Origin: Leucosporidium creatinivorum
Lineage: Eukaryota; Basidiomycota; Microbotryomycetes; Leucosporidiales; Leucosporidiaceae
Length of the DNA: 64,000 nt
Assembly (NCBI GenBank): GCA_001600635.1
Contig: BCKL01000001.1
Location: 1,158,808 to 1,222,807, forward strand
Direction of reading: 5' to 3'
In this document: one piece after another, positions 10,248 to 61,275 of the stretch
Layout of the letters: the number at the start of each line of letters is the position of its first letter
Numbering within the stretch: position 1 is the stretch's first letter
Translations under genes and position numbers: made by a program
Notes under the pieces: generated by a model
Databases searched by the model: none
The model's input: the letters and a program-made list of their open reading frames with translations, nothing else
What the model was told of the DNA's origin: nothing

Positions 10248-10363
10248 TCTGTAGCGAGCGAAGTGTAACGTCGAAAGCCAAGAGTCGAAAGCCTGCCGTC
10301 GGCTCGCTTTCACTCCGCCTACATTCTCCTAGTCACTCGTCGCTCCACTACAGGAGGCTCAGG
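10248..10363. promoter_or_regulatory. short divergent promoter region, DAO1 / NPR3
   Basis: Only 116 nt separate the start codons of the D-amino-acid oxidase (minus) and NPR3 (plus). Both promoters must be in this stretch or overlap the genes. No TATA-like element is obvious. An acceptor-like CTACAG lies 17 nt before the NPR3 ATG. Confidence 0.55.
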
Positions 10364-35691: not shown

Positions 35692-38600
35692 ATGGCACAA
35701 GTGAGTATTGTAGCTCCCTGCTCAGACTACCCTGCAGCAAGCTAAGCCGTCGCTTCTCCTACAGCGCGTGAGGCCCAAGCAAGCAGTCGAGCAGGACGTG
35801 ACGATGGAGACGAGCCTACAGCAGGTCAAGGTGAGGAGGAGGGCTACAACAGTACAGAGAGCTCAGCTGATCAACTGACTCCCTACAGACGCTGCTGGAT
35901 ACGGGTGTGGCCTGCATCACCTACTTGCGAGGCATCTTCGAGGAGAGCACCTTCTCGGAGGCTCAGATCCTCGCTCCCCGTGCTCCAGTGTCGTCGAGTA
36001 ACCCAGCAGGATCTCAGAAGGCGGAGCAGAAGAAGGGAGACACGACCAGCGTCAAGGTCAAGCGCCTCCTTCGCGGCCACTCGGAGGAAGCCGACAAGCT
36101 GCTCGACTTTCTGGTGAGCTTCTTGCTCGTACACTCGAGTACCACAGAGCTGATTCCGAGATCTACAGGAGCATGGTGCAGCCGATGCCATCCGTCTAGG
36201 ATACCTCCATCAGCTCAGTACGTCTCGCCTCTCGGCGCCGAGCTCGCTGTTCTCTTTCTCTCTCCTCTGGCCCCGCACCTCTCCGCTGCCGATGCTACCA
36301 TCCCTTCTGAACCTACAATACGACACCTCGCTGAAGAGTGCCGAGCACAAGCTGACCGAGCTCTCCTTCGTTTCTTTCCCCTCTCCCCTCTTCTTCGGCT
36401 CGGTCGACCTCGCTTCACAGTCTTGGTCATCTACCTCGACCCTTCGCAGCCCACCAACATCGTCGAAGCCTACACCTTCACCTTCAGCTACGAGACGGAT
36501 GCCCAAGGCAACAAGGTGGGTTCCTCCGCTCCCTCGCATGGCGGCGAATTCGCCGAAGTGTGGACTTGACGGGTGACGACTATCTCACCGGCTTCAACAG
36601 CGCCCCGAGATGGACGTTCGCGACAAGCTGGGCAACATGGTCATCTCGTCTTCATCGTCATCTGGGAGCAAGAAGAACAAGATCAAGGACAGCGATGTCA
36701 AGCGTCAGGTGCAGCGCCTCATCAAGAAGTAGGGTGTTCTCGGTCTCGGCTCGCTGCGACGCCTCGCTGACCCATGCGCCCCACCTCGCAGCCTCATCAC
36801 CAACACTCAAGCACTGGACGAGCTCCCTCGTCGTCGCTTCGTCAACCTGCGCGTCTTCTTCACCGAGGACTGCCCGCCCGACTACCACCCTCCTCACTTC
36901 AGGTGAGTGCTCCCGTCGACCTGCTTCCGCAAGCATCGGGAGTGTCGCTGACCTCTCTCTCTTCAGTCCTGTCGACCCTTCTCAAGCGGACTACAGCATC
37001 ACGACGTCTCAGGCTTCAGAGCAGCCCGAGGTTGGCACGCTCGGCGCCTTGAACACCGGCTTTCATGGGTAAGGCCTTCGCGAGCTTCATCGAACACGAC
37101 CGCTTACCTTTTGCGTATACAGTGTCACCCTCCACACCATCTCCATCGCCCATCTCCTCGAGACCGAGTACGACGAGAACATCACCCGCGCCGAGTGCCT
37201 CGACCGCAACCAGCGCGAAGCTGCCACTCGCAACGTCGTGTGGGACGCCGAGGAGCTCGTCTCGTCCATCACCGACGAGGACGCCAAGATCAAGCTGCTC
37301 GATCCTGTGGGCATTCTCGACGAGGAGGGCAAGCTGAGGACGGTCGAGGAGGTGCAGCGCGACGAGGCGCTCAAGGAGATTCGCATAAAGGTCGGGCTCG
37401 AGGTTGATGAGGAGGAGCAGATGGTGCTGTCTAAGGGAGAGGCCGACAAGGCGGCGAGGTCGAAAAACCTCTCGGACAACGAGGCTCTTCAGCAGGCGGT
37501 GAGCTTGCTCGGTGCTCGGATCGGCGCTCAGAAGGCTGACCGCCCTCTTCTGCAGCTCGCCTCCACCGTCGACCAAGCTTCGAGTCAAGTCCCTGCGACT
37601 CAGCCAGCACCCATCGTCTCCCGTCAAAAGTCCTTCCGCCCTCCCGTCCCTCTCTTCGATGAGGCGCCAGAAGCGTACGCCGAGAGATCGGCTCAGGCAG
37701 CCGCTTCGATGCAGCTCAGCCAACAATCACTCTCCGACCTCGATGGAGAGCGTCTCGCTACGGTGGATGAGGATGCGGAGATGGAAGATGGGACAGCGGA
37801 GCACGGAGCTGTCGCCGAGACTGTCAATGAAGGGGCCTCGATCCAGTCGTGAGTGACCTCCGCCAACCTCTCGAGCCATCGCTAACCCTTCTCGTATCTT
37901 TTCTAGTATCGTGCAAGAGCGAGCGGCTGCCCAAGGCTTCCCCGTCTCGTCGATGAATGCCTTCGAGGTCGCCGAGGACGAGACCCAGCTCATCGACTGT
38001 GAGTCTTACCCGATGCTCTTCGCTCGACGCAGCTGATATTCTTGCCCTACAGACACTCAACACGTCGGCGCGAGCCCAGCTCTTCCCGAGTCGGCTCAGG
38101 CGGCTCGCTTGCCTGCTCCTCAAGCCGCTCAGCCCGCTGGCAAAGCGCACAAGGCGGCTCTGCCCGAGCATCGTCAGGAAGGATGCTGCGAGTGTGGTTA
38201 GTTCCATTGTCAGAAGCGTCGCGACTCATTATGCTGACCTCGCTCCCTTCGCAGGCGATTCGGCGGATGATGGCGACATGATCGAGTGCTCTGGTGCGCC
38301 GACCACTTGATCCAGCCTCTCGTGCTGTCGCTGACCTCTGCTTACACAGACTGCGACGTCTACAAGCACTGCTGCTGCTACGGGTGAGCCCTTGACTGTG
38401 CTCGCTCAACGCCGCCCATCGCTGACTTCTCGACTCGCAGCTTCGACGGCGCCTCTGACAAGCGCATCCCCGAGGAGTTCGTCTGCTACCCCTGCAGGGT
38501 CAACATCGGTCCCGTCGAGGCCTTGCTTAACCCCAAGCGCATGCCCGAGATCTCTGGCGCTCTCGATGACCTTCGCAGCCTCGCCTTGTTCCGCCGAGGT

Positions 38601-39943
38601 GGGTTCGAGTCTCTCGCAACGAGTGCTGCTCGCTGATACTCCTTTCTCATCACAGCTATCGATACGGTGTGGAAAGATGGCGTTCTCGACCAGAACCAGC
38701 TCAGCGCCCGTCTCGGTAAGCTTTCGTCTCGCGTTCTGCGAACGGTCGCGCTCACCTTCTCGCAGCCGTCGATCTTTCTACCGCCGCTCAGCTCATCGCT
38801 CGCCTGCGCGAAGAGCGCTTCATCGTCGAGAGAGCACCACCGAAGGGCAAGGGCAAGTCGCAAGGTCGCAAGAAGCCTCAAGTCAGCATCAGCAGGTGAG
38901 TCGAGCCGCTTCTCGCAGCTCCTGCGATGCTTGCTGACGCTCTCCTTGCACTTCAGGTCGGCTCCGCAGAAGCGCCTCAAGAACGAGACCTACTTTAATC
39001 CTGGGAAAGGCGCCGAGGCCGATTTGACCAGCTTGCTCACCTCCACCGACGCCGATGCCGAGGGCGAGATCGAAGTGCTTCGTCGCCTCGCGTCTCCAGG
39101 GCCCTTCGCTGACTTTTGTCACATAGAGTCGTCGCTCGACTGTTACGCGAGACAAGTCGGCGCCTCCTCAAGCCGCCCCCAAGCCCTTCTCGAGCATCGA
39201 CACTACGTCGTCGACTGCCTCGAACCCTGCGCTTCTCGCGCCGGCTGGACCCGTCAACGGCAGTCAGATCCTTCCCGCCTCGCTTCTTCGTCCCTCGCGT
39301 GACGCCGAGATGCTGGAGGACGACCCCATTGGCGACTTTGACGGGGAGAGCCTCGAGCCTCCTTGCGCTCAACAGCAGCAGCAGCAGGTCGAGCAGGCGG
39401 GCGAGTCGATCGACACCGATGAAGAGCATAGTCAGAAGCAGCAGCAGGTCAAGAAGGCGCCGTACGTGCCCAAATTTTCGAAGGGCAAGGGCAAGGCGAC
39501 GACGAGCGGCACTTCGCCCTTCCAGCGCGCTTCGTCGGCCAAGGTACGTCTGCTCAAGTCTCTCCCCGTCTCGCGCGCTGGCTGACTTTTGCTTTCCCGG
39601 TCACCTGCAGTTCGTCAGCATCCCCGAGCAGGCTTCGACCGACATGGACGAAGACGACGAGGCCGAGCCCGAGACCGTCATCGAGACTCCGCCCGCCGCC
39701 GCCCTCGCCGCTGCTGCTGCTGCCTCTTCGGCCAAGTCTTCCGCCTCCTACCGCCCTCTCACACCCGTCACTCGCTCGCCCTCGAAAGCTTCCACCACCA
39801 CCCCAAAGTCGAACGGCAAGCGCGCGGCCGACGAGGCTTCGGGGCAGCCCGAGATGTCCGACTTCGAGGAGCAGGTCGGCGTGACGACGAGGCGAAGCAA
39901 AAGGACGAGGAGGTGTGCCGAAGCTGTTGCGCTTGAGGTCTGA
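35692..39943 (+). CDS. HOP1: HOP1-like meiotic HORMA-domain protein with PHD-like finger
   Basis: Meiotic chromosome axis protein that promotes interhomolog recombination. The first coding exon is nine bases (ATG GCA CAA). The HORMA domain includes TLLDTGVACITYLRGIFEES, HSEEADKLLDFL, DAIRLGYLHQL, then VIYLDPSQPTNIVEAYTFTF. NLRVFFTEDCPPDYHPPHF and TLHTISIAHLLETEYDENI complete it. A zinc finger follows at about 38160-38500: GCCECG, DGDMIECSDC, YKHCCCYGF, EEFVCYPC, a PHD-like C4HC3 pattern, and then a helical part (VDLSTAAQLIARLREERF). This matches the PHD plus winged-helix chromatin-binding region described for Hop1. The tail is Gln-, Ala- and Ser-rich and ends RTRRCAEAVALEV. About 15 exons. 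Hop1 is absent or lost in many asexual fungi, so an intact copy suggests a sexual cycle. Confidence 0.85.
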
Positions 39944-40099
39944 GGGCGATGCTTTGCTTGTTGAGGAGGGATCGAGTCGCTTTGCTTCGCTGTCGAGTGT
40001 TATCCAGTTGCAAAGCTTTCGAATGAGCTATTCACTATCATCGTTGAGAGTCTGGAGAGCTGTAGAGCCGATGGATACGCTGTGGCGCGAAGGAGAGCT
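39944..40099. other. HOP1 3' flank
   Basis: Short non-coding stretch between the HOP1 stop and the first copy of the direct repeat. Nothing else seen. Confidence 0.4.
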
Positions 40100-40430
40100 G
40101 GTCTGCGAGGCTGCTCTCCTCCAGGCGAGACCGCTTCGGTGAGGGGTCCGAGCTTCGGCGCTGGCATATGGGCCCTCCGAGCAGTCGACCTGTACCAGAA
40201 CAAGCTCGCAGAGTCTCTTCGCATCTCTCTCGGCGCTCTCCATCGCTCAGCCGCTCCTCGAGTAGTAGACAGAGTAGCAGGATCCCTCCCTTTTCAGGCT
40301 CAAGCTTCGTTCGTACACGGGGTCACCCCTCCCTCCCCTTCCCAGCCACCTCAGCACACGTCCTACGTACCCTACGCAGCGATACTTTCTTGTAGGTTCG
40401 CGGGCAGCTATCCTGTGCAGTGGGAAGGGC
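40100..40430 (-). repeat. copy 1 of a 331/332-nt direct repeat: displaced duplicate of the FAL1 3' end
   Basis: This segment matches 43972-44303 with 16 substitutions and one single-base indel by my count (about 95% identity), same orientation. In the other copy the last 60 nt are the final FAL1 exon ([13 protein letters not shown] and stop) and part of the preceding intron, read on the minus strand. Here the exon remnant is altered near its start (an indel shifts the DEMP codons), and no upstream FAL1 exon exists, so it cannot be a working gene end. The remaining 270 nt match FAL1 3' flank. It lies about 410 nt beyond the orphan A stop codon, on the side towards HOP1. Confidence 0.85.
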
Positions 40431-40838
40431 TTGACAAGGAGGCACTGAAGGCGCCGAGACGAGACGAATCGAGTAGCAAGCTCGGCGGCGGTGGAGAGCA
40501 CGATCTAGGCGTTCTGAGGTGCACGTCTTTGATATGAGCTCCGTTTCTCGACGCCTTCTGCTTCTCCTCGAGCCTTGTTCGCTGGGGAGAGCCTGCTCAC
40601 CTCGCCGCCTCTCGATTCTGCTTCTGTAGACAAAGTACGACACTGACTTGCAACGACGAGAGTATGGCAATGATGGAATGGAACATGACTAGATGTAGAT
40701 GAATAATGGCACGACATGATGAGGGTACAGCTATGCACGAAAGGGAGAAACTGGAGGTAAAGAACGTCAGCGCCGAGCTCGACAAGAGAGCGAGAAAGAG
40801 GCTCACCTATTCTGTACATTGGGTTCACAGTTCTGAGC
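40431..40838. other. 3' flank of orphan A
   Basis: 408 nt between the repeat and the orphan A stop codon. GCGCCGAGA (about 40450) and CACGATCT (about 40499) resemble words in the FAL1 intron beyond the other repeat copy, so a decayed extension of the duplication is possible. No gene seen. Confidence 0.35.
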
Positions 40839-42838
40839 TCAAACTCGGCCAGCCGGGAGCACCTCCAGGATGGCCTTGGCGAGCCTGCCGAGGGACCACG
40901 AAGCCTCGGCGCCGAACTCGTTGGTCTTGGACGAAGGGCAGCTGGCGAAGTGGGAGATGACCCTGACTGGCCTGCGCTTCTCCTGTCCTTCGCCATCGTA
41001 GCGACAGGTCCAGTGGCCATCCGAGAGGGGGAAGCTCGGGTGAGTCTGCTGGCATTGCTGAGTCCTCCACCAAGCGCGAGAGCCGAGCGGGTAGGAGGGT
41101 GTGACGACAATGTCGCCAGGCTCGAAGTGGATGAAGGTGTAGATGGGCGTGGGTGCGGAGGTGGGGTCGGACGAAGAGCGAGCTGGGGCGGAAGGAAGGA
41201 TGCGAGGGCCGAATTGGGAGAAGTTGACGCTGTAGCCGATGGTGCCGTCTTGCGAGTGGAAGAGGTACGCGTTGCGTTGCTGGCAGTCCTCGCGGAACAG
41301 AGCCGAGCTATACTCGATGCCGGTGTTGACGCAGCGGGCGAGAGGGAGGTTTGGTAGAGTCTCATCGGAAAGGACGATGGGGGAAACGCTGGCCTCGCTG
41401 ACGTCGACCTTGGTCTTCGACTGTGTAGTGAGATAGAGTTAGCGGTTGTTCTTGCTAGCGAGAGGATGGATGGCTCACCTGGATGTGCACAGCAAAAAGG
41501 TGGTGCTGGTTCATGGTGACCGAGGCGGCCACCGCCTCGTTGTAGACCATTGGCCTCGGCGCCCTCTGTCGGATCCTGGCCGAGCTGCTCCTCGAAAGGC
41601 CGTCCTTGGGGGGAAGAAGCGGGCTAGTAGGAACAGGCGAGGTAGAGAGGGCAGACATCTGAAGGGCGATGTTGGCGACGCCTTGCGCCGAGCCTCCATT
41701 GTTGCCGATGGCGATGGGAAGGGATCGGGAGAGGTTCTCCGAGAAGGAAGCTGACCTGCTGTGGCAGTTGGAGGTGGAAGCCATAGGGTTGAAGCGAGGA
41801 GCGTCGCGACCGCTCGATCCGCGCCGAGGTGCCCTGCCGGCGTTCGAGCTCGTGCGGGTGAGGGCAGGCGAGGTGTGAGGGATGGGCAAGCTGGTGCCCA
41901 GCGACGAGTCGAGAATTTGCTGAAGCTGAGCCGCGAATGAGCTGGGGCTGGCGGCCGCGAAGAGGGGGAGGGAAGAGTTGGCTTGAGGAGGGCAGGGCGC
42001 GGAGAGGAGGGGAGTGTCGACGCCGAGGCTAGCGGGGAAGCTGTTCGACATGGGAGGCGAGGAGTAAGGGCTGTCAAGAAGCTCTTGCGAGCCGCTGACG
42101 AACGAGAGGTCGGGGAAGGCAGCGTAAGGCGAGAGCCACGGGGAGCGGCTCGGCGAAGGCCCCGAGGAGCAGCTCGAGTTGGATCGAGGGTAGTGCTGGT
42201 TGAGGAGGAAGGCGGGGTCGATGGTGTTGTCGTATGGAAGTACAGGGAGAGGAGGAATGCCGTCGAGGGGAGGGAGGGAGTCGAGAGGAGGGAGAGCCGC
42301 GCCGAAAGCGTTGGTCGACCCGAGAGCGTCGACGGCGCCAAAAAGAGGGCTGTCGTCGAACACGGTCGGCCAGGTCGAAGAATCGTTGAACTCTCCTCCG
42401 ATGGTGAACTCCTCCTCGTCAAGCGGAGCATTCTGCTGCATGGTGAAGCCGGCAAAGTGGCCTCGAGCGAACGAGGGGTTGCCTTGCTCTCGGTGGGCTT
42501 CCAGCTCCCTCTGCACCTTCTCCCAGATGAGGGGATCTTGCTGGCCCGAGACTGAATCAGGATCAAGTCAGTTATCGAGCTCGGATCACCTGGAAGGGGC
42601 ATTGTTCGGCTCACTCGAGTTGACCTCGTCCCGGAAGGCGGCGATGGCCACGGCGTTGGTCCTCTGCGCAGCGGCGAGAGCTTCCTCACTCTGTTGTAGT
42701 GCCAACAGACGTGCGGCGAGAGCTGCAGAACGTGAAGAGTGAGTCATCTCGGCTCTGCGGTGAAAGCGATGCCGCGAGGAGCGAGAGAGAGCACGCACCA
42801 GAGGGAGCAGCGAGGGACTGGGAAGAGCGCCCGTCCAT
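40839..42838 (-). CDS. orphan A: Ser/Pro-rich protein with WWRxQxC...HFxxC C-terminal domain
   Basis: Exons on the minus strand 42838-42799, 42722-42615, 42551-41479 and 41420-40839 join in phase to 600 residues. The N-terminus has a short helical segment (LLALQQSEEALAAAQRTNAV; DPLIWEKVQRELEAHREQ). Residues about 80-400 are low-complexity Ser/Pro/Leu with acidic and aromatic patches (DEEEFTIGGEF, STWPTVFDDSPLFGAVDALG), which could be activation-domain-like. The C-terminal domain, about residues 395-590, includes IYTFIHFEPGDIVVTPSYP, WWRTQQCQQTHP at 524 and RVISHFASC at about 560. The same ending is found in orphan B (50296-51872). I know of no family with this motif. There is no DNA-binding finger, membrane segment or enzyme signature. 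It is bracketed by the FAL1-derived direct repeats. Confidence 0.7.
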
Positions 42839-43971
42839 GAAAGTAGGCAGCAGCTATAGTCGAGTTGAAGTTGGTGGTGCTCGTATGTAGTCGAGTGCGA
42901 GAGCGACGAAGAGGGAGAAGGGAGAAAGGTGGCGGTCAAGAGTCCGGGGAAGGGGAGGGGCGGCGTGCCGCTGTACAGAGGTCATATTCAGCCTCCGAGG
43001 CTGCCCGAGCACTGCAACGGCCTGCATGGCATCCAAATCTGAACCCAGAAGGCTGGGCAAGGCCTCAGACAATCATGGGAGACATGGAGCGCCGAGATCG
43101 CTGGTAACCCTCTCGGCGTTGCTTGCTGGTCGTGTACAGCAGCTGCAGGTGTGAAACTTGAACAGAGTATTCAAGTACAGTCTATTCACCCCGACCGAAG
43201 TTACCGAGCTGCCAAAGAGCTACAGAACGCCAACCCGTCGAGCTCCTCCGTCTCGACCGAACCTCGTCACAGCTCCGGGCTGTGCAGGCTCCGAGCCTAA
43301 TCGCTCGAATCGCGCCTGATGCCAGAGGAGATCTGTCGAGATGGCGGATTCCATCGGCGTATCGCCTGGCAAAGCTCGGCACGGGGGTCGAGGACGGAAA
43401 CGAAAGGCTCGGCGGAGTCTCGACCTGGTGTGAAGGCAGTGCGAAGGGGAGAGGGAGGGGAAAGGCCTTGGCCGCGGGAAACTTGCTCAACAGCATCATC
43501 CTATGGCGGTACGAGAACGTTGCCAGACATCGATCCGTCGCGGAGGTTGGAGCTGAGCAGCTGACTTGACCGGATGGGTGGACTCGGAGGGAGGGAGTGC
43601 TCTGCGAGCAGCCAGAGGGACTTTTCCCTGGAGCCAGGTCAGCATCTCCAGAGTCATCTGACATCATTGCAGACCGTACAGGACCCTGCCCGTCGTAATA
43701 GCGAAGGCAGTCGTTTTGTTAGCTCCGCCGAGCATCAGCGCCGAGCTGTCGGCCTTCCTCGCTCATCACGAAAGGGCTGTCGTAGAGCCAGGCGGAGTCT
43801 GTGAGCAATTTGCATAGCTAGAAGAGCTGTATGGGCAAAGTCGTAGCACTCGCAAGGCCGTCCTTCCCTGCGAGCCAGGACCATTACCTCGGCGATGACT
43901 GCCACCTTCGGCGCCGGCTTACGAGCGCTGTGAGCCATCCAAACGCCTTCTGCTTGCTGTCAGATGAGAAA
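42839..43971. promoter_or_regulatory. upstream region of orphan A, 1.1 kb without a supported gene
   Basis: The longest gene-free stretch. A 161-codon minus frame at 43182-43667 exists but has no recognisable domain or splice partners, so I do not call it. The region should contain the orphan A promoter and perhaps the true end of the FAL1 transcript. No tRNA or transposon hallmark was found. Confidence 0.4.
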
Positions 43972-44303
43972 GGTCTGCGAGGCTGCTCTCCTTCAGGCGA
44001 GACCGCTTCGGTGACGAGTCCGAGCTTCGGCGCTGGCATGTGGGCTATCCGAGGAGTCTACCTGTACCAGAACAAGCTCGCAGAGTCTCTTCGCATCTCT
44101 CTCAGTACTCTCCATCGCTCAGCCGCTCCTCTAGTAGTAGACAGAGTAGCAGGATCCCTCCCTTTTCAAGCTCCAGCTTCGTTCGTACACGGGGTCACCC
44201 CTCCCTCCCCTTCCCAGCCACCTCAGCACACGTCCTACGTACCCTACGCAGCGATACTTTCTTGTAGGTTCGCAGGCATCTCATCCTGTGCAGTGGGAAG
44301 GGC
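43972..44303 (-). repeat. copy 2 (source) of the direct repeat: FAL1 last exon and 3' flank
   Basis: 332 nt overlapping the end of FAL1. It covers 272 nt of 3' flank, the last exon (stop TAG at 44244-44246), and part of the last intron. Because the exon here is functional and continuous with the gene, this copy is taken as the source and 40100-40430 as the duplicate. Boundaries are sharp: identity begins at GGTCTGCGAGG and ends at GTGGGAAGGGC in both. Confidence 0.85.
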
Positions 44304-46480
44304 GTAGAAGGGTGTACAAGGGCCGTTAGCGGTCGAAACGCGAGTGGAAGCGAGCGCCGAGAAACGTCGGGCGACGCTGGAGTACAGTGGAAAGGTGCAC
44401 TCACGATCTGAGTAGCGTAGTACTGTTCCAGGTCCTGTAGGTGAGTGGTAGAGGTAGCGAGGTTAGCATACAGAGCTCATAGAGAGCAGCAGAACGAGCG
44501 CCGAGAAGACGAACTCGGAGGATCTTGATGTCCTCGTTGGTGACAAACTGCAGGGATGTAGCGGGTCAGCAGTAGCACACAGAGACAAGCTAGAGCAGCA
44601 CTCACGTTGATGGCGACTCCCTTGCGACCGAACCTGAGTACAGAGTACAGAATCTCGGGTCAGCTCTCGCTCGCTCCTCGACCACCAGCTCCTCCCCGTC
44701 CACAAGGCCACACCGACTCACCTTCCCGAGCGTCCGATGCGATGAATGTAGTTCTCGCGGTTTGAGGGCAGGTCGTAGTTGATGACGAGCGAGACCTGCT
44801 GGACGTCGAGTCCACGCGCCCAGACGTCGGTGGTGATGAGCACACGAGACGTTCCCGAGCGGAACTCGCCCATGATCGTGTCGCGCTCCTTCTGTGGCAT
44901 CTCGCCGTGCATCGAGGAGACCTATCACAGCAAAGAGGTAAGAGGTCAGCGCGGGGAGAAGGAGGGAGAGGCGCCAGAGACGAACGGTAAAGTTGGCCTC
45001 GCGCATCTTCTCGGTGAGCCAGTCGACCTTTCGCCGTGTGTTGCAGAAGATGACGGCCTGGGTGATGGTGAGGGTGTCGTACAGATCGCACAGGGTGTCG
45101 AACTTCCAATCCTCCTTCTCGACGGCGACGAAGAACTGCTTGATGCCCTCCAGCGTCAACTCATCGCGCTTGACGAGGATGCGGATGGGGTCGGTCATGA
45201 ACTTGGTGGTCATCTCGAGGACGTCGTGAGGGAGCGTAGCGGAGAGGACGACGACCTGCGTCTGAGGAGGGAGGTAGCGGTAGACGTCGTAGATCTGGTC
45301 CATGAAGCCTCGGTTGAGCAGCTCGTCGGCCTCGTCGAGGACGAGCATCTTGATGTTGCGAGTGCGGAGGTGACGACGCTTGATCATGTCGAACACGCGG
45401 CCAGGGGTTCCCGAGACGACCTGCTGGCCGTGGTCGAGCTTGCGAATGTCCTCGCCGACCGAGGTTCCTCCGATGCAGGCGTGGCACGACACGTTCATGT
45501 AGTCTGTTCGAATAGAAGGTGAGCTCTTGATCACCGCCGCGAAGTAAACCAACGGCACTCACCTCCAAGAGCGAGGACGACACTCTGGATCTGAGTCGCG
45601 AGTTCACGAGTAGGGGAGAGGACGAGGGCCTGGGTCTCGCGAACGGAGGTGTCGATGGACTGGAGGATGGAGATGGAGAAGGTGGCGGTCTTTCCGGTTC
45701 CAGATTGAGCCTGCGAAACGAGCCGAGCGAGCGAAGTCAGCCAACGTCTCGGGGCGGGCTCTCAACCTAGGGAATGAGATGCGCACCTGAGCAATCACAT
45801 CGCGACCTTGGGTGACGGGCTTGATGGCACGCTGTTGGATAGCCGAGGGCTTCTCGAATCCTGTGGTCCGGCGAAAGCGAGAGTCAGCATGTGGGAGCTT
45901 GAAGGAAGCGAAAGCGCGTCTTTGATGAGAGATGGACGGACCGTAAGCGTAGACACCACGAAGGAGGTCCTCCTTGAGCCCAAGAGCATCGAAAGTAGGG
46001 GCCTGCAGACAGCCCAAGATCAGCGAAAGGGCTCGGCGGAGAAGGGAGGGCGGAGCGAGTAGCGCACGATGGAGACAGACTCGGAGGTCTCGAAGACGAG
46101 CTTGGAGTCCTTTGCTGGGTCGATCTATGAGTAGTGGAGTTGTAAGAGTCAGCTACACGTCCTGGTCGCCCTTGCTGAGCCTTTCGACCGAGATGAGTTG
46201 CTGGTGGCCCGCCTTGCTCCCTCCCAACTCGCCCTGCAATCGACTTGGACGGTTCTTGCTGGTCCCAGCTGCTCCTCTATAACCCGGCATGCTCCTTCTT
46301 AACTTCAAAGTTGATCCCACCGCGCGAAAGCCGAGTAGACGGCGAAGGCGAGAGTCGAGACGGAGAGGCGAGGGGAGGATGGGAGGTGACTGAGTCCACG
46401 CGAATTTGTAGCGACAAGACGAGGCTGTAGGGCGGTAGGGCTAGGGTAGACTGAGCTGTGAGTTGTACACTTACCGACAT
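44244..46480 (-). CDS. FAL1: FAL1/eIF4A3 DEAD-box RNA helicase
   Basis: Orthologue of human eIF4A3 (exon junction complex anchor) and yeast Fal1 (40S rRNA processing). The first coding exon is only ATGTCG (46475-46480), then a 350-nt intron. The body follows eIF4A3 almost residue for residue: [40 protein letters not shown] (Q motif); [14 protein letters not shown] (motif I); [19 protein letters not shown] (II); [12 protein letters not shown] (III). The C-terminal lobe has [60 protein letters not shown] and [19 protein letters not shown]. The tail is [10 protein letters not shown] joined to [13 protein letters not shown]. About ten introns. The last exon lies inside repeat copy 2. The eIF4A3-like signature motifs place it nearer FAL1 than the translation factor eIF4A. 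Confidence 0.95.
46125..46474 (-). other. long (350 nt) first intron of FAL1
   Basis: Starts GTAAGT right after ATG TCG and ends CTCATAG before ATC GAC CCA. It is several times longer than the other introns in the window, which are mostly 50-110 nt. Early long introns often carry transcriptional enhancers; this is inference. Confidence 0.65.
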
Positions 46481-46733
46481 GATGAGGATGAAGTGGGAAT
46501 CAGACCTGCTCTCTCTGCGACTGTCTCCCTTCTCAAAGCTGGCCAGCTCACAGCTCTGTTTCTTACGCTCTCCTGCTCCGCTTCTGTACCTCGCTACTAC
46601 TAGACTAGGCTCAGCAGTGAGTTGCAGTCCTGCTCATCAGAATCACAGCGCTAACCAGCTCTCCTACAGCTCGACCTCAGCCAGGCCAGCAGCTCCCGCC
46701 TCGCCTCGCCTCGTCTCGTCGTCTCGCTGTACC
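46481..46733. promoter_or_regulatory. divergent promoter, FAL1 / SF3A3
   Basis: 253 nt between divergent ATGs of two RNA-processing genes. Several CTCTCC/CTACAG words are present on the SF3A3 side. A shared promoter would co-express an exon-junction helicase and a U2 snRNP subunit. Confidence 0.5.
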
Positions 46734-48626
46734 ATGTCGTCCTCCGTCATCGAAGACTGCCGTCAGCAGGCCGAGGACGCCGACTTGTACGAGCGCTCCG
46801 TCACGCAATTGCTCCTCTCGCTCGAAACGCCCGCCCTCACCCACCGCGACAAGCTCGCAACCTCCCACCGCGCCTCCGACTTGCTCTCCCGCATCGTACA
46901 CCGCTCCGACGCCCTCCTCACCGCAATCTCGCCCGACAACGAAGAACGAACCCGCGAGATTGACGCCCTCACCGGCCAGGAAACTGGGGGCGACCTCGCC
47001 GAGTTCTACCAGCGGTTGGCCAAGGTCAAGGAGTACCATCGCAAGTACCCGGACATTGCGCAGGTCCGCGTCTCGGGCGACCGGGAGGTCGACTTTGCTG
47101 CATTGGAGCAAGGCGACGACGAATGGCTCGACAAGAAGTTCACGGGCGAGGAAGGGCTGGGCCGTTATGTTGACTTGCACGAGCTGCACGAGATGTGGAA
47201 CAACTTGGCGCCCGCCTCATCCTCGGGTGCAGCAACGGCAGGAGGATGGAAGCGCATGACCTACCTCCAATACTTGGCCGCCCTCACCCAGTTCGCCCTC
47301 TCGCCGACGCTCAAGTCGACGCCCGAGTACTCCAAATACCTCACGGCGCTCCTTTCCTACCTCTCGAGCTTCTACGAGAAGACGCAGCCATTGGGAGATT
47401 TGGATGAGGTGCTGAAGAAGGCCGATGAGGAGTTTGCCAAGGCATGGGAGGAGGGCAAGATCGAGGGATGGGCCAAGCCGAACGAGCAGGGAGAGGAGAA
47501 GAAGGAGGGCGAGGGCATCTGGTGTGCAGCTTGTGAGTTGGTTCGCTCAAGCCGTTTCTAGGACCTGACTGACCCTCTGCTCTACCACAGGCCAAAAGAT
47601 GTACTCAAAGGACACGGTCTACCAGGCTCATCTGACATCGAAGAAGCACGTCAAAGCCGCTGCCAAGCTCTCCTCCTCCACCACCGACTCCTCCACCCCA
47701 TCAGCCTCCGCTCCCTCCTCCTCCTCCCTCGCCACCCTCCGACACCAAAAGAACCGCGCCCTCGCCCTCAAAGAAGCGCTCATCACCTCTCTCCTCTCGC
47801 CCTCCACCGACCCCCCTGGTCCCCTCTCCACCATCCTCTCCGACACTCTCTCCAACACGGAACGTCGCTCCGCTCTCACCGACAAAGAACGAGCCGTCGA
47901 GATCGAGGAGCTCGAGGCGCGCGAGGCGGCCGAAGCGGCTGCTGCTGCTGCTGCTGCTCAGGCCAAGGCGCCGCAGGAGGAACAGGAGGATGAGGAGGAG
48001 AGGATCTATAACCCCCTCAAGCTGCCGTTGGGGTGGGATGGCAAGCCCATTCCTTTTTGGTTGTACAAGCTGCATGGCTTGGGCGTCGAGTACAAGTGCG
48101 AGATTTGCTCGGATTTCATCTACATGGGACGGTGCGTTCTGTTCTCTCTTGGCTCGCTCGGCCGAGGTAGGTATTGACACCTTCTCTCTTCTCGACCTAC
48201 AGCAAAGTCTTCGAGCGCCACTTCCAGGAATCTCGTCACGCCTTCGGTATGCGCGCCCTCGGGCTGCCCAACACCAAGCATTTCCACGAGATTACCAGGA
48301 TCGAGGATGCGATTGCTCGTGCGTTCTCGCTCCCTTCCTTCTGTTCTCCTTAGCTCGAGCTTGAGCTGACACGACCCTTCTCGACCCGTGAACAGTCGCC
48401 GAGAAGCTCAAGCAGGAGGGCAAGGCCGAGTTGGCGCAGAGCGAGTTGACCGAGGAGCTCGAGGACGAGGATGGTAATGTGTACAACCGCAAGGTGAGCA
48501 TCTCTCCTCTCACTTCTCCCTCACCGCTCCACCTGCAGAGCGAACGCTGACCTTCTCCCCTCGCTCGCGCTATCGCTCGCTCGTTCGTAGACGTGGGAGG
48601 ACCTCAAGCGACAGGGATTGTTGTAG
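46734..48626 (+). CDS. PRP9: SF3A3/PRP9, SF3a 60-kDa subunit of U2 snRNP
   Basis: Core SF3a protein needed to form the 17S U2 snRNP and the prespliceosome. ATG 46734 opens [30 protein letters not shown]-type region is [39 protein letters not shown] and [15 protein letters not shown] are family hallmarks, as is [12 protein letters not shown] first zinc finger is rebuilt over an intron: [20 protein letters not shown]. The C-terminal matrin-type finger is [20 protein letters not shown], then [20 protein letters not shown]. The end is [11 protein letters not shown], stop TAG 48624-48626. Five or six exons; an Ala/Glu-rich linker ([20 protein letters not shown]) separates the fingers. Convergent with FRG1, about 108 nt apart. 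Confidence 0.95.
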
Positions 48627-48734
48627 TCGCTCTCTCCCAGTGCTCGTCGCGAGGAGCAATAAAGATGAAGTTTACGACAAAGCGGTTTTGCAGAGCGAGA
48701 GCGAGAGTATATACATGACAGGGGAGGGATAGAA
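48627..48734. other. convergent 3' region SF3A3 / FRG1 (108 nt)
   Basis: Holds both 3' ends. AATAAA lies just after the SF3A3 stop at about 48658-48663, a plausible poly(A) signal on the plus strand. Confidence 0.5.
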
Positions 48735-49841
48735 CTAGCAGTAGCGATCACTGTGAGAGAGGCGAGGTCAGCGGAAGATAGGGCAGAGGGCAAGGGACCC
48801 TTGAGCGCACCTCTTAAGCTTGACACGACGCTCGAGCATAGCTTCGCCGAGCTTGCCGTCCTGCCTGGCGCGTTTGAGCTCCTTCTTGTCCTCAGCCGAT
48901 CCAACGTAACGTCCTTGACCGCGAGCTTGGTACTTTTGGCTGTATTAGCGGGCAGAGAAGCGATCAGCCATCGACTTATCAGCCATCGACTTAAGCGAAC
49001 TCCGAACCTCCGAACTCACATGAGATCCTTCTCAGCCGCTCCCACATCTCCCACAATGGTCAACCCATCGTTGGCCACCGCCGCCTTGACTCCACTCCTC
49101 TCCATCAACTGCTTCTTGGCCTTGGTGAGGAACTCCCCCTGCATCCAAAGCCTCCACCTCTCGGTCTCTCCCTCCTCCGTCTCATCAGCCCTAACCTCCA
49201 TCTTCCCTCCCGCCAACACATCCACACTCAGATAATTCCCATACGAGCTCTTGACGACCACTCCCTTGCCCCCCGTAGCCTCCTCGAGGGTAAACTCCTC
49301 CTGCACTCCCCTTGCCTCCCTCTCGGCGCTGACCACTCCCAGTTCATCCACCGCGAGGAACTTGCCCGACCCCGACCTGAACGTCACCGTGTTCATCGTA
49401 TCGGGAATGCGAGTGCACACCCATACATGATTGACGTCGGCGGGGCCTTCGGACCCTGCTTCCGCTTCGACGATGGCTTCCAGCTCCTCTTGCTCCAATC
49501 CAGCGGCGGCGGAGGCGGCGAGGGTCGAGTGCGAGGAAGCAGGGATGGGGAAAGGGTAGATCTTGCCTGTTGTAGGTTGTAAGGCGAGGCAGATGGGCTG
49601 TTGGGTGAGCGAAGTGGAGGGGAGGGTGAGGTAGGTTGGGCCCAGAGTGAGCGAGGCGGAAGGGACGGCCATCCAGCCTGAGAGCTCTTCCTCCTCTTCT
49701 TGCGCTGTGATGGGTGCTTTGACCTTCTTCTTCTTCTTCTGAGGCGCGTCGCCTTTGAACTGGGACAGCGGAGAGGTGGGAGTCAGCTCTCGCAGAGGGG
49801 TGGAGCTGTAGCAGAGCAGTACTCACAGTGAGCTTGCCCAT
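48735..49841 (-). CDS. FRG1: FRG1-like nuclear/actin-binding protein
   Basis: FRG1 has a fascin-like beta-trefoil, binds F-actin and RNA and is found in spliceosomal C complexes. Exon 1 encodes only MGKLT; the next exon starts FKGDAPQKKKKKVKAPITAQ with a basic nuclear signal. The trefoil includes SGWMAVPSASLTLGPTYLTL, FRSGSGKFLAVDELGVVSAE, EEFTLEE and YGNYLSVD, as in the family. The C-terminal KYQARGQGRYVGSAEDKKEL, then ERRVKLKSDRYC and a stop, matches the RAKLKADRYC ending of FRG1. Four exons on the minus strand, stop TAG 48735-48737. A disordered segment rich in Glu and Ala interrupts the trefoil at about residues 80-110. Confidence 0.9.
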
Positions 49842-50295
49842 TGTTAGCTGAGAGCTAGAAGCGAGTACGAGTCGAGAGCGAGAGCGGAGCAAGAAGACGT
49901 CGGAGGGAGAGAGGCGAAAGCGGAGGGCGTCCTCAAGCTTAGACTCAGACCGCATCCTACTCGACTGCAATCTCGTATCTTAGCATCTCCAGCAGCAATC
50001 ATGACCGCCTACAGACCCCCTGCTCGCTCTTCAGCCGCTTCTCCGCCCGTCCTACAGCCCCCTTCGCCTCTCGAGCTTCAGCTTACAGCTGCTTAGCTGG
50101 CGCTCAACTTCTGTAGCGCAGTAGTCGTCAGCAGAGCTCAGCACGACATCTAAACGGCCTTACGCGTCTTCACCTCCGCTCTCCCGCTTCGTAAGATCAG
50201 CGAAGTCGCACTCGACTCTACTCGGCGTGTCCCCTTCAGAGCGGTCGCTTTCGCTGGTCTTCCTCAGTCAACAACGACCAAGGACGAAGCCGCTG
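49842..50295. promoter_or_regulatory. divergent region FRG1 / orphan B with an upstream ORF
   Basis: 454 nt between divergent ATGs. On the plus strand an ATG at 50001 opens 31 codons (MTAYRPPARSSAASPPV...) ending at TAG 50094-50096. Several CTACAG words here could instead be 3' splice sites of a 5'-UTR intron. No other gene seen. Confidence 0.4.
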
Positions 50296-51872
50296 ATGGA
50301 CTACAGCTCGCCCTACGACTTCGACACCACCAGCGGAGGCGGAACGCTACAGCCCTTGGCTCCTGAGACTAATGGAGCGGGGTCGGCTTTCGCAGCTCGG
50401 TTCCACCAGCTGCTGCTGCCGTTGGAAGAGCTCATGAGCGAGTGGAGGATAGGTGAGTCGTCTATAGTGCTGGAAGAGTGCTCTCCGCAGGCGTCATACG
50501 AAGCTGACTCGCTACAACAGTCTGTCAGACCTCGCCCGAACTCGCGCAAGAGACGCTCTCGCTCCTCAACCACAGCGGCAACCTCACCGAGACTCACTAC
50601 ATTCTCATCAATAGTATCTTCACTTCCGCTGGAGCGCAACCCGAGGTCTGTAGAGCTTTCCGTCGCTGTTCTCGGACCCTCGGCGCACGAGCTGACTCAC
50701 TCGGCTTGAACAGTACTACGCCCCTGCATCTCTTCACTACGAATCGCAGCCACCTTCGCAATACATCAACTTCATCCCTCCTACGATACTCGCCCCTCCG
50801 CCGCCGACCTTCCCTCCGACTCAGCAGCAGCAGCAACCCTGGGTCGGGATGACTCTCGTGGACCCTCCCGCTCCCTCGGTGTTCGACTCCATCCTCGCAG
50901 CTACGGAGGAGTTCTCGAGCTCGAAGAGTCTGATGTCGCCGGGCGGCGGTATAAGCCTCTTCGACTCGCCAATACTCTTCGGAGGAGGGGCGTCGACCGA
51001 GCCCATCGGCAACTTCCTCCAACTCCCGACTCCCCTCCCTACGCCCACGGCTCCCGGCTCCTCCTTCTCCCCGTGGTCCTCTCTCGCACGCTCTGCTTCC
51101 ATCAGCAGCAGCAGCAGCAGCAGCAGCTTCTCCCCTTCCGCTCCTGGGCCGATTCTCGTCCGCTCGGCCTCCCTCCCCTCGCCCTCTCCCGCTCGTACCG
51201 CCCAACTCCCACCACTCAACACCACCGCTCTCTACCTTCTCCTCCTCACTCGTCCTTCCTCGGCACTCGACACGAAGGCCAAATCACCCAAGCTCGAGAT
51301 GCACGAGCTCTCGCTTCTCCCCTCCGGCTCCTCCCCCTCGGCGCTCGACTCGGAGTCGGAGGAGCAGATCCTCCGCCTCGGATGGTTCGAGTACGAGGGA
51401 CAGAAGACGCCTAAGAAGGTGTATGAGGTGGTGCAGAGTAAGGGGGACGTCGAGTTGGAGCTGCGCGGGAGCTCGGCGATGGAGCGCGAAGGGGAGGGGG
51501 TGCGGATCCTCTTCTTTGAGGTGGGGACGTACTCTGTACCCGTCGCGAGTGAGGGGGGAGCAGTGAGAATCGGCAGCGGCGAGTGGTGGCGCGCGCAAGT
51601 CTGCATGGGACGTGTACGCCTTCATCTTCTCTCTTGCTCCCTCCCCCGGGCCTTGCCTTCCTCGCCGTCTCGCGCTCACCTCCTCCTCGCCGACCGAACA
51701 GCACCCCCTCTCTCCCCCCTCCCACCTCTACTGGTCGTCCACCACAATCGGCCACAAGACGCGCAAGAATCGAGTCCTCGCGCATTTCACGACTTGTACG
51801 AAGGGCAAGAGCTCGGAGGCGTTGAAGGTGCTTGCGAGGGCTGCGGCGGGGGAGGGGAAGAAGAGTGGGTAG
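50296..51872 (+). CDS. orphan B: Ser/Pro-rich protein sharing the WWRxQxC...HFxxC domain of orphan A
   Basis: Exons 50296-50452, 50521-50645, 50714-51613 and 51702-51872 join in phase to 450 residues. The N-terminus (MDYSSPYDFDTTSGGG) leads to a helical piece (HQLLLPLEELMSEWRI; TSPELAQETLSLLNHSGNLT). A poly-Gln/Pro stretch and Ser-rich middle follow, with FDSILAATEE and nine consecutive AGC serine codons. The C-terminal domain starts near TALYLLLLTRP and has RLGWFEYEGQKTPKKVYEVV, GVRILFFEVGTYSVPVA, WWRAQVCMGRHP at residue 385 and RVLAHFTTC at 418. The last intron (donor GTACGC) lies between CMGR and HPLS; orphan A has no intron there. Function unknown. It stands about 7.5 kb from its relative orphan A. 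Confidence 0.7.
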
Positions 51873-52240
51873 GCGAGTAGATGGACAGGAGTAGGGGGAG
51901 TAGGTTGGGAGAGGGGAGAGGTTCGGTGGCGAGGGGAGGAAGATTAGGAGGGAGTTGCTTGGCGGGAGATACTTGGATGCTATCGCGGGCAGGCTGTTTT
52001 ATTTCGACGTTCTTTCACCGTGTATATGCTTTTGAAACGCTTTGTTGTTTGTTTGACAGACTCGGCGCGAGCGAAGAGGACTGGTCGATCAGGCGATTCG
52101 GTGCTCGGCGTTCGCTCTCTTAGCTCTCGGCTTCTCATCTCGGGGTCGATCTCTCAGTTCCTCGCTTCCGCTCCTGACACTACACACAGAAAGTATCTGA
52201 TTCAATCCCTCTCGCAAGCAGAAAGCCATCTGAACTGACC
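51873..52240. other. convergent 3' region, 368 nt
   Basis: Between the stops of orphan B (plus) and the AP endonuclease (minus). Includes a purine-rich GGAG run just after the orphan B stop. No gene seen. Confidence 0.45.
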
Positions 52241-53714
52241 CTACGGCTGACCCTCCATGACGAGAGTGCAAGGCCAGTGGTCGCTCGCGTTGGGGAAGTT
52301 GGCGTTCACGTCGTGGCGGATGTCGCAGCTGAGGATCTGGTCTTGTAGCTCTGTATTCGCGAGAGGAGGGTGTGAGCTAACTTTGACCAAGCGGGAAGGC
52401 AGGAAATGACGAACGAGGCGAGATGAGGAAGGTGTCGAGCCTCCATTTGCCGTAGCGGACGCTCTCGTGGCTGTTCAGTTGAGGCAGAGGGTCAACTAGG
52501 CCCGCAAAGGACCTGAGCGATCAGCGAGAGACTCACGTGTACTCCCTCGCCGTAGGATGAAGTGCCCTCCAAGCATCGACCAACCCCGTCTGGTCGAGCA
52601 GCAGACCGTGCTCGACGCGCTCCCAGCCCATACATCCAGGCATTCGGTTCCAGCAGTCGCCGAACTTCTCGCCTTCGACATCTGCGGTGACGGACGGAGA
52701 GGCGTCAGCAATGGGCAAGGGCAACGCCCAGCAAGGCGAGGTAGCGACCTACCGTTCTCGTGGAAAAGGACGTTCAAGTCTGCACCCCAGATGATGGGCT
52801 TCCTGATGTAGCTGACGTGCGTCTTGAAGGTCGAGTTGAAGTCCTGGCGCCTCTCCTTGAACTGCAGACCCCTCGGCAGGCAGCTCTCGCGCTGTCGAGC
52901 CTCGGCCGAGGCAAGCTGACTCACCTGACCCTCCTTGCCGCTGTTGGGGACATACGAGCCAATCACGACGACGTGCTCGAACTCGAGGGTGATGCAGCTT
53001 AGGAGAGAGATGAGATCGAGGTCAGAAATCGGTCGACTTGTGCACACCAGCGCAACTCACGTCTCTCGGCGTCCTCCTGGATGTAGTTGAACGATCCAGG
53101 AAATCCATACTGTGGGTCAGCGACAGGCTTGAACTTGCTGAGAATGGCTACGCCCGTCTTCCAGTAGCGGTACTGCAGGCGCGTGGGGAGTCAGCGCGCC
53201 GAGCGAGCGTAGAGAGTCAGCGACCGGAAGCCAAGCAACTTACAAGGTAGCGAGGGCGAAGGTAGTAGAGCTCGTCGGCATCCTCAGCGTTCTCCCAGCC
53301 AGACTCGCAGATGATCATGATGTCGGGGTCCTCTGCACGAGAAGGAGGAGCGGTCAGCTCAGCTTTCGGCGCCCGAGCGAGCTGCTCGCTCTGCAGGGCG
53401 GAGAGAAAGAGCGGAAAGAAAGAGCGTACCAGCCTCAGTGTACTTCCTGAAGCAGTGCTACAGAGTCAGACGCGTGGTTTGAAGAGCTCGTCAGCTCGCA
53501 GTCTTCCCACCGCGCCCGACCTCTCTCGTCTCGCACGCGGCAGCCTATCGCTCACCTTCTTTTTGGCACTACTGCAGTCGGCGAGCGACCTGACGTTCCA
53601 GACTGCGAGCTTGTAGCTGTTGTCGGGCTTTCGAGGGTAAGAGAGCGGGTTGTTGGGCAACGGTTCGGGAATCTCGTTGCGAGGGCGGAAGAGGGGAGCG
53701 AGCTGAGGCGGCAT
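52241..53714 (-). CDS. ExoIII/APE1-type AP endonuclease-like protein
   Basis: Member of the endonuclease/exonuclease/phosphatase fold. All ExoIII catalytic positions can be placed: the Asn in LAVWNVRSL, the Glu in IMIICESGWE (family LQExK), Tyr in GSYVPNSGKEGQ, Asp and Asn in IWGADLNVLF, Asp in WRLDTFLIS, and the Asp-His pair in ASDHWPCTL. YRYWKTGVAILSKFKP also fits the family (Y.G.A...K). The protein begins MPPQLAPLFRPRNEIPEPLP and has no zf-GRF domain, so it is the short APE1-like form rather than APN2. About eight short exons on the minus strand, stop TAG 52241-52243. The change from LQE to ICE and the inserted GWENAED make the substrate less certain than the fold. Confidence 0.8.
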
Positions 53715-57500: not shown

Positions 57501-60500
57501 CTAGCCGGAGGAAGTCATGCTGACGGGGTGCTGGTGCATCGACGAGGCTGCGGCAGGGTGCGAAGGCCAGCTCCTCGGCGCCGACTGCTGACCGCCCATC
57601 AACGAGGCTGCGACGGCGGCCGAACCATCCGAGGAGACGTCGTCGGGGAACCTAGGCCTCTGGGCGAGGGATGGCAAGGCGACTTCGGCGGCAGCATCGG
57701 CCACAACGCTGGACGTCTTGCGCTTGCGAGCATTCGCCAAATCGCTGACGCCAATGGGTCCTTCCGAGACGCGACCTGCCTTGTCGGAGCGAGCCTTCAC
57801 CTTGGCAAGCATGGACTTGAGGTCCTCGTCGCTGTAGCGGAGGCGGTAGAACATGTCGCCCTTGGGGAGCGAGGAGTAGTGGTCGGGGCAGGAGATCTTC
57901 TGCTCGTTGCCGACCTCGACAATGATCTGCGAGAGGTAGCACAGAACGCGGCAGGTGCCACACTGGTACTCCTCCTCGTCGAGCTCGGTCGAGTCGACGT
58001 CCTCGTCGGCGTTGGGAAGTAGGCGACGGATGCGAGCTCGAGAGACGAGCTCGCGGTCGACCATCTCCTTGTAGTTGGGGAGCAGCCTGTCCAGATACAA
58101 GTTAGCGGTAGCTCAATAGCAAACGAGTCCAGAAGACCTACCAGCGCGAGTTGCGAGGGCTCTTCTCGTACTGAGCGATGGTGACGAGGAGCTCATCGTG
58201 CGAGAAGACGGGGTTCTTCTTGATGTCGCGGTAGCGGTTGACGCACTTGAGGCCGGTCGGGAGCCAGTCGGGGAGGGCAAAGTTGACCGCCTCGTTGAAG
58301 TTGAAGCCGTGGTTGAAGCCCGAGTGGTAGCCGCGAGGGAAGGTGATGATGAACTCGTTCGGGCGTTGATCGCAGGCGACGACGCGGACGCCGTGCTTCT
58401 TGAGCCGTCCAGGGCTCATAAGGGTGACGAGCTGGAACATGAGGTCGGGCTGTTGGTCGAAGAGCTCGGGAGCGGCGAGCTTCATGGCGGCCTCGAGCTT
58501 CTCGTCGTCGGCGCCGGGAATGCCGTACCAGGTCTTAGTGTCGCCCCAGTGGTGGTAGTTGATGCTGCAGAGGGTCAAGACGGGTCAGCTACATAGCTCA
58601 AGGTCGCGAGGATGAGAGCTCGACCGACCTGTAGGTGTAGTGGTCCTCCTTGTGCCAGGCGAAGGTCGAGAAGACCATGCCGACGTAGATCCAAGGGATC
58701 GTCATCCCCGAGATGTCCGACTTGATGTAGCGCAGAAGCGAGCCAGCGAGGATGGGGAGGTTGTTGAGGTTCCAGCCGTCGCGCGAGTATGGATCCTGAG
58801 GATGAACCTCAAGGTTGGGGAATCCTCTGCGAAGGGGCGAAGGTCGTCAGCGCCGAGATCGCTCCGGCGGCACAGTAAAGTGGACTCACCCTCCGTCCTT
58901 CGTCGAGTTAACATCTGCACCGTACTCGACCTCGACCGTCTCGTGCTGCGACTCAACGAGGCGCCAGAACTCCCGCTCAAAGTGATCCTCAATCGCGAGC
59001 TGCTCGTCGAGCTCGTCCTCGGCGCTGTCGATGTCCATGGCGCGACCCTTGCCCTTGTCGAGTGGCATAGGGTGATCCTGCAGCCACTTCCGCTTGAAGG
59101 CATCCGCTCGCCTGCGGAACGAGTGGAGACTGTGCTCCTCGCCCTCGTCGAATCCGTAGTCGGCGCCGTTGAGGAAGAGGCAAGTGTCACAGAAGAATTG
59201 GGAGGTGGGAACTTCTTGTAGAGGAGGGGAGAGGCAGTTGAGGTGGTAGCCACGATCGCAGCCGTCGCAGAGGACGATCTTGTGAGGGTCGTGGTCCTTG
59301 GTGCAGATCTCGCAGACCTGTAGGGGAGCAAGTCTCAGCTCACCGCTCCTCGTAGCCGAGCCGGTCAGCTAAGCTCACCTCTCCGGGCGTGTCGTCGTAA
59401 GCAGCAGCCTTCTTGACGTCGCGGGAAGGCAGGAGACCGGCGAGCTTCGTGACGGGGGCTACGGACCGAGCGGCCGAAGTGTCAGCTCGAACAACTCGTC
59501 GCTTGTCCACAGATACAGGAGACGCACTTGATCCTTTGTTTTCCATCTCGATGGCCTCGTTGAGCTTGTCCGAAGCGGTGCGGACCTTCTCGTGCGTAGC
59601 GGCGGAAGGTCCAGCGGGTCCTTCGGCGTCGGAGCGAGGCGTAGCCAGCGAATCAGCGCCGTTGCCGGGGTTGGGAGTGGCGTTGAGCTTACTGGCGAGC
59701 TCATCGAGGATGGGAACGTCTTCATTGAGGATGGTAGGGTCGGGAGGAGGAACGCCGCCGGCGAGGTTGACTCGCTTTACGTAGTCCTCGAAGGGCACAA
59801 CGATCTTGAGGTAAGCCGTTTTGAGCTGCGAGCAGACGGTGGTGTTGACGGTGACGTTGTAGCCCATCTGCTTGCCGACCGCGGTCCACTTGCGCTCGTT
59901 CGTGACCTGATCATCGCCGAAAAGTGCGAAAGTCAGCTTTCGTTCTCTCGATGGTGGGCCACAGGCTTCCAAAACCTACACTGGCGTATCCTCCGAGAGT
60001 GGTCACTTCTCGCTTGAGCTTCCACATGTCGAGGGGCTTGTTGCCGATGGTAGGGATCGAGATTCCGCTGCTGCCTTGCTGTCGGTGGAAGAGGTAGAGC
60101 TGCTCGAGGAAGTTGAGACTGGCGCGGGCGGAGGCTTCCATCGAGTTGAGCTGCTGTAGACGAGTCTTAAACCGGAAGGTCTGCACCGGAGCTCACGAGC
60201 GTTAGCGTACAGCGCAAGCGGCAAAGCCGAGCTTCCCGGCCAAGAACGACGCACCTCAGAGTCGAGAGCAAAGGGAGGGCGCCATCCCTCGGGCGGGACG
60301 ATCTTGCAGATGCCGTACTCCTTGGCTTCGACAGCAATCTTCTCAATGTACTCCATGGGGTGCGCAAACTCCTCGACCGAAGGGTGGTAGACGGGCGCCT
60401 CTGGGATCCCGAAGATTCGAGTCGGTCGGCTCTTGGGACGAGGGGCGGGATTGGGGAAGCGTGGCGCATGGGTGCGGATGGTGGAGAAGTCCAGGGGAGG

Positions 60501-60887
60501 AGATTTGGCGAGCTTTGCAGCCCTTCTCGACGGGTTGGCCTTGGGTCCCGTCGTCGTTGTCGAGCTCGAGTCGGTCGCTGCTGTCGAGGCAGCAGGCGGG
60601 GGGGAGCCACGATCCGAATCCTCGGCTTTCGAGGGCCCTGCCGTCGCCAATTTTTGTACGCTAGTATTAAGCGCAGCCAGAGCATTGGTTTTACTCGCCC
60701 GAGCTCCCGGTCGAGGCAGCGTCGCGGGAGTGTTGCGCCCCTTGATGGCGGTCGTCTCAGCCACGCTCGAGACGGAAGGGAGCGCTACAGGGCCCTGCTC
60801 CTCGTCGTCGCCCTCGTCGTCGCTAAAGACGAGGTCCATGGACGAGTGGAACGTCTCCACGGGTGGCACATACTTGCTGGTCGACAT
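57501..60887 (-). CDS. KDM5/JARID1-type histone H3K4 demethylase (compact form)
   Basis: Fe(II)/2-oxoglutarate enzyme. Domains in order: JmjN (IFGIPEAPVYHPSVEEFAHP), ARID (LQQLNSMEASARASLNFLEQ ... LDMWKLKREVTTLGGYAS), a PHD finger (CEICTKDHDPHKIVLCDGCD; GYHLNCLSPPLQEVP), JmjC, and a C5HC2 finger (CGTCRVLCYLSQIIVEVG; ISCPDHYSSL). JmjC keeps the metal ligands: His and Glu in FAWHKEDHYTYSINYHHWGD, and the second His in YHSGFNHGFNFNEAVNFA. The PHD is of the kind that reads unmodified H3. The protein stops soon after C5HC2 with a low-complexity tail (SMHQHPVSMTSSG). It lacks the PLU-1 region and the extra PHD fingers of animal KDM5 and smut Rum1. About eight introns, stop TAG 57501-57503. Confidence 0.92.
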
Positions 60888-61275
60888 GAGCGGCGACTGA
60901 GCTCTTGGAGAGGGAATCTGGAGGGGGCGGCGCCCGAGACGAAAAACGACGTTGGTGTGGTCCGAGAGCAGTCGAAGAGGGTGTAGTCGAGTAGTAGAGT
61001 AGTCGAGAGGCGGTAGGTGCAGCGCAAAGGTGAGAGTCGGAGTTGGAACGATGTCGGAGAAGGCAGAAGAGCTTGGACCAGCTGCTCGCCGACATTTACG
61101 ATCGAGTTGGCCCTCAAGATAGAGAGGAAGCGAGTTGCTAGAGATGCATACGAAAGCTACACAACCACAGCTACATTTTTCCGAAGCGCCCCATCTCTCA
61201 TCGCCGACCTAAGAGGTCCATGCTCGCCCTGCTGAGCGAGAAGTGCGTGTGCCCGCTTCGTTCGGCGGGCCACCC
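60888..61275. other. promoter region of the KDM5-like gene, 388 nt
   Basis: Lies between the F-box protein stop and the KDM5 start, both minus strand. No additional gene or repeat found. Confidence 0.45.

Follow-up and report, generated by a model that had tools for sequence, protein, structure and literature searches.

In the 64-kb window, the whole stretch of DNA that was analysed, two predicted genes, A and B, encode proteins that end in a common C-terminal domain. Once spliced, the two proteins are identical at 22 of the 57 aligned positions (BLASTP E=5e-10), and the domain that the sequence-only reading had proposed is, as judged by these comparisons, real. The pair was chosen by eye from about 25 genes (an estimate), that is, from about 300 possible pairs; multiplied by that number, the BLASTP E value should still stay near 1e-7.

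How are the two genes built? Both models were predicted from sequence alone. Gene A (40839–42747, minus strand) encodes 595 residues and, after splicing, is open to its stop. Its three coding exons (42747–42615, 42551–41479 and 41420–40839) are separated by introns of 63 nt (42614–42552) and 58 nt (41478–41421), with the borders GTGAGC...CAG. The ATG at 42747 is the safe start, giving a clean 595-residue frame with two introns by predicted splicing. From the start proposed earlier, at 42838, the simplest intron leads to a stop after 16 residues, although an acceptor 2 nt further, placed by hand, would keep the frame, so that 42838 may also serve as the start. Gene B (50296–51872, plus strand) encodes 450 residues in four coding exons, with introns at 50453–50520, 50646–50713 and 51614–51701. 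The third of these (88 nt, GTACGC...CAG) falls inside the first conserved motif, between CMGR and HP; splicing joins the two parts in register with the intronless CQQTHP of A, and if a donor 2 nt upstream is taken instead, the reading frame changes and the motif is lost. The third-position GC is 0.77 in gene A and in gene B, 0.81 in the nearby SF3A3 stretch and 0.74 in the FRG1 stretch, in a window of about 60% GC.

With low-complexity masking, BLASTP of A against B gave E=7e-10 and one significant piece, residues 514–570 of A (LGSRAWWR...SSKTNE; 40917–41087, minus) and residues 380–433 of B (51569–51818, plus, with the intron 51614–51701 within). The score of a local alignment confined to the domains is 110, as against a mean of 25.6 and a maximum of 64 in 20,000 shuffles. 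When the full-length proteins are aligned, none of 2000 simple shuffles reaches 110 (maximum 84) and one of 2000 shuffles of B within 20-residue windows does (maximum 115), apparently through composition. By tblastn over the window, B finds A at 8e-8 and otherwise, up to E=1, only itself. The reverse search is weaker, because an intron splits the domain of B: A missed B up to E=1 in one run, and in the other, among the last matches listed, it found the last exon of B alone at E=0.047.

Which residues carry the similarity? Both motifs lie within the genes to which they had been assigned, at coordinates found by motif match: WWRTQQC (41072–41052) and RVISHFASC (40964–40938) on the minus strand in A, WWRAQVC (51584–51604) and RVLAHFTTC (51771–51797) on the plus strand in B. 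As a DNA pattern and in a six-frame scan, each of the two has two matches in the 64-kb window, those in A and B. Measured from start to start, the motifs are 36 residues apart in A and 33 in B, which corrects the earlier figures of 40 and 33. The two Cys and two His do keep their positions, as had been claimed: C525, H529, H559 and C563 of A align with C391, H395, H422 and C426 of B. Mapped from the residue positions, they make up a C-x3-H half site (41040–41054, minus, in A; 51602–51704, plus, in B, where the splice sites place C391 before the intron and H395 after it) and an H-x3-C half site, placed also by the DNA motif (40938–40952, minus, in A; 51783–51797, plus, in B). The layout is C-x3-H-x29-H-x3-C in A and C-x3-H-x26-H-x3-C in B. 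The whole of protein B contains three Cys, of which the two in the domain region are the conserved pair; an additional domain cysteine of A, C541, is Ser in B. Three Trp are common to the aligned domains, one of them between the two motif blocks, and basic residues ahead of the second half site are kept in both. The bare spacing C-x3-H-x(20-40)-H-x3-C is not rare: a six-frame scan of the window meets it three more times, and each time a stop codon interrupts it.

The loop between the motifs scores 18, a value equalled by 27% of shuffles, and the tail after HFxxC scores 17, equalled by 65%. The region upstream of the motif scores 26, at a shuffle mean of 25.8. A hydrophobic strand with F-E-[PV]-G before WWR had been counted as a common feature. 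This is not supported: 30% of shuffles attain its score of 17, and so do 64 of the 189 other 30-residue segments of A. Since the inner loop, the tail and the upstream strand are each nonsignificant alone, the conservation lies mainly in the two motif blocks. We infer that the signal consists mainly of WWRxQxCx3HP and RVxxHFxxC, whose spacing hardly varies; a conserved Trp lies between the two.

Does the domain belong to a described family? Neither full-length protein matched Pfam (newest models 2025) up to E=10, and at the same threshold the domain pieces gave one chance match, of the B piece to Lipid_DES at E=0.2, in scans whose HMMER filters discard most weak matches. NCBIfam and PHROGs have no match to A or B. 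With no convincing match in these three collections, the description of the domain as unrecognised holds. Literature searches on the motif strings, fungal-specific domains, zinc signatures and the spacing returned nothing relevant among the matches listed.

Relatives were sought in several sequence collections. With the alignment of A and B we obtained 36 candidate stretches in viral contigs and 60 in genome contigs, and with the second half of the domain 29 in viral contigs; none was confirmed, in searches that use exact short peptide patterns and are blind to distant relatives. The DNA pattern WWRxQxCxxxHP picked out 7 viral and 92 prokaryote-collection stretches. None of the 84 in-frame matches in these 99 loci is followed within 90 residues, before any stop, by R[VIL]xxH[FLY]xx[CH]. 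A tblastn of both domains on the same loci gave a best E of 0.004, its top rows lying over the selecting pattern. The plasmid collection yielded one match at E=0.9 and the phage collection none up to E=1. Since the viral, prokaryote, phage and plasmid collections contain no fungal genomes, misses there say little. Within the window, the stretch 52438–52247 (minus) was tried as a third copy and rejected: its tblastn match to A (E=0.15) is a chance one, without the WWR and RVxxHF motifs. By eye, we take it to be the end, with S-D-H-W-P, of an AP-endonuclease-like gene. This exonuclease/endonuclease/phosphatase-like gene (52241–53714, minus, several short introns, by eye) lies just after B.

The conservation of the Cys and His makes a metal site, which the sequence-only reading had already raised as a possibility, plausible. 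The putative ligands follow the order C, H, H, C of the CHHC finger (U11-48K, tRNA methyltransferase, GTSF1), with an identical second half, H-x3-C. In the known CHHC fingers R-x3 precedes H-x3-C, as it does in the module of A and B. The extract of PMC9539491 defines the CHHC finger as CPX4HX9HX3C and reports such fingers to be binders of structured RNA or, among some relatives, of proteins. A and B depart from the finger as defined in that extract: their first half is C-x3-H, 29 or 26 residues separate the His, no Pro follows the first Cys, and the spacing CPX4HX9HX3C is found in neither protein. The CHHC Pfam model (zf-U11-48K) matched neither the full proteins nor the domain pieces up to E=10. 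As far as that extract describes it, the CHHC finger appears to be the closest described layout that we found. We predict that the two half sites probably bind one zinc ion, in a layout that suits known zinc sites.

What of the long bodies that precede the module? Ser and Pro make up 27% of the body in A and 31% in B, and it is from composition that we judge the bodies to be probably disordered. Their mutual alignment score is reached by 84 of 1000 simple and 192 of 1000 windowed shuffles; in these tests no alignment beyond composition was found. A candidate body motif, EEF...FDxSPxLFG, was discarded, its 27-residue score of 29 being lower than the 34.7 that shuffles average for the best stretch of that length. 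The bodies carry net charges of −7 (A) and −12 (B), the C-terminal cores +2 (A) and +9 (B). Of R-S-x-S sites, which are possible kinase targets, A has four, three of them in its body, and the body of B has two; a Ser-rich sequence, however, readily produces such sites. By eye, no signal-peptide-like start is evident in either protein.

How might these parts work together? In the mechanism that we favour, A and B would be old, diverged paralogs that retain a single compact module of about 57 residues at the C terminus, whose two half sites would share one zinc ion. The body, rich in Ser and Pro and probably disordered, would act as a regulatory or activation region. The zinc module would bind nucleic acid, and both proteins would be regulators in the nucleus, most likely as transcription factors.

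The same Cys and His would also serve in a zinc-stabilised module for protein–protein or RNA interaction, that is, in an adaptor whose Ser/Pro body acts as a scaffold and offers phospho-dependent docking sites. In its favour, B contains R-S-A-S-L-P, which presumably fits a 14-3-3 mode I site. The H-x3-C half is moreover the second half of the CHHC fingers, which the extract describes as RNA or protein binders (PMC9539491). On the other hand, the spacing in A and B does not fit the CHHC fingers as they are defined in that extract, and there is no relative with a known function; we consider an adaptor possible, if somewhat unlikely.

Could the ancestor of the module have been a zinc finger of the transposase type (BED or FLYWCH-like) whose domestication preceded the split of A and B? 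BED fingers have a Trp-rich start, a first pair C-x2-C and a terminal H-x3-C-like pair, and the Trp-rich start and H-x3-C end of the module recall them. However, the first half site is C-x3-H in both A and B, not C-x2-C, the BED Pfam model matches neither the full proteins nor the domain pieces, and there is no Pfam match to a transposase and no catalytic domain. A direct repeat of about 330 bp (40100–40430 and 43972–44303, 94.9% identical, 3.87 kb apart) flanks gene A. The site may therefore have been rearranged, which would suit a transposase origin, but the repeat ends lack an inverted pair: none was found at both ends of either copy, and while copy 1 has none at all, copy 2 has one imperfect 21-nt pair, one arm of which lies inside the copy and the other across its edge. 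On balance we hold such an origin to be improbable. The repeat could be a dispersed element or what is left of a segmental duplication. With an identity of 94.9%, as against 39% at best between A and B, this recent-looking repeat would not explain the duplication of A and B. A search of 38000–53500 gave no Rfam match at gathering score, and no tRNA was found in the window.

A metal-free beta-sandwich of immunoglobulin-like fold, in which the Cys and His would be structural or surface residues, is likewise improbable. It was suggested by a PDB search with exon 3 of A, which up to E=10 gave 25 sequences. Twenty are IgE heavy chains, matched over G-D-I-V...THP at a best E of 0.067, and two further antibody heavy chains match an earlier stretch of the same exon. 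An E of 0.067 is at chance level, however, and the IgE matches all but repeat a single sequence. The profile of A and B together found no PDB chain up to E=10, B alone found only an unrelated enzyme (E=0.53), and the immunoglobulin lead, which the profile does not support, was set aside. AlphaFold models are of low confidence and uninterpretable, for exon 3 of A (193 residues; mean pLDDT 34.9, pTM 0.20) as for the last 101 residues of A (mean pLDDT 39.8, pTM 0.26); the input was A with two unspliced exon pieces of B as extra rows, in which MAFFT misplaced a few B residues.

That A and B resemble each other by chance, or merely through low-complexity sequence or faulty gene models, is scarcely credible: the single windowed shuffle, the inflation of full-length comparisons by the Ser/Pro bodies and the poor tblastn of A would allow it, but the domain-only shuffles, the masked BLASTP, the tblastn from B to A, the third-position GC similar to that of two neighbouring genes and the restoration of the split motif by a GT...AG intron all speak against it.

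Do A and B form a local gene family, as had been suggested? They do have a homologous module, but they lie on opposite strands, their identity of 39% is confined to 57 columns, and between them there are at least three unrelated genes, with predicted DEAD-box helicase, SF3A3 and FRG1 stretches; the case for a local family is weak. A stretch with a LUC7 domain follows beyond the gene after B. In a scan of twenty of the longer open frames of the window, the neighbours look like ordinary housekeeping genes and offer no functional hint for A or B. Elsewhere in the window, an open frame at 60006–61208 (minus) contains a JmjN domain (E=1.1e-15) and may mark the beginning of a gene for a histone demethylase, and a gene for NPR3, a GATOR1 subunit, at 10199–12781 (plus) is matched in two open stretches.

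We return to the proposal that A and B are nuclear regulators. For the predicted proteins, the alignment shows the homology of the module and the conservation of both half sites, three Trp and basic residues. This homology, the aligned Cys and His, the conserved pair of B, the positive core, the negative Ser/Pro bodies, the R-S-x-S sites and the start without signal-peptide character support the proposal; against it stand the lack of a match to a Pfam DNA-binding family, the weakly basic module of A (+2), the restriction of the conservation mainly to two motif blocks, the low-confidence AlphaFold models and the lack of a relative beyond the pair in the collections searched. Our assignment of A and B to the nuclear regulators, in which a small module that would bind zinc and possibly nucleic acid follows a disordered body, is tentative, and the prediction that the module binds DNA is made with similar reserve.

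A further step, which we think unlikely though worth stating, would be to see in the module the founding member of a type of DNA-binding domain that holds zinc, is restricted to one lineage and has not been described before. Its layout would be C-x3-H...H-x3-C, entered by WWRxQ, and it would belong to a family of fungal regulators that no Pfam model recognises. If A and B are a lineage-specific orphan pair only, they would matter little beyond annotation. If orthologs keep the four ligands, the module would be a small zinc module, missed by the Pfam models searched, in regulator-like proteins, and would give a handle on genes that annotation would leave hypothetical.
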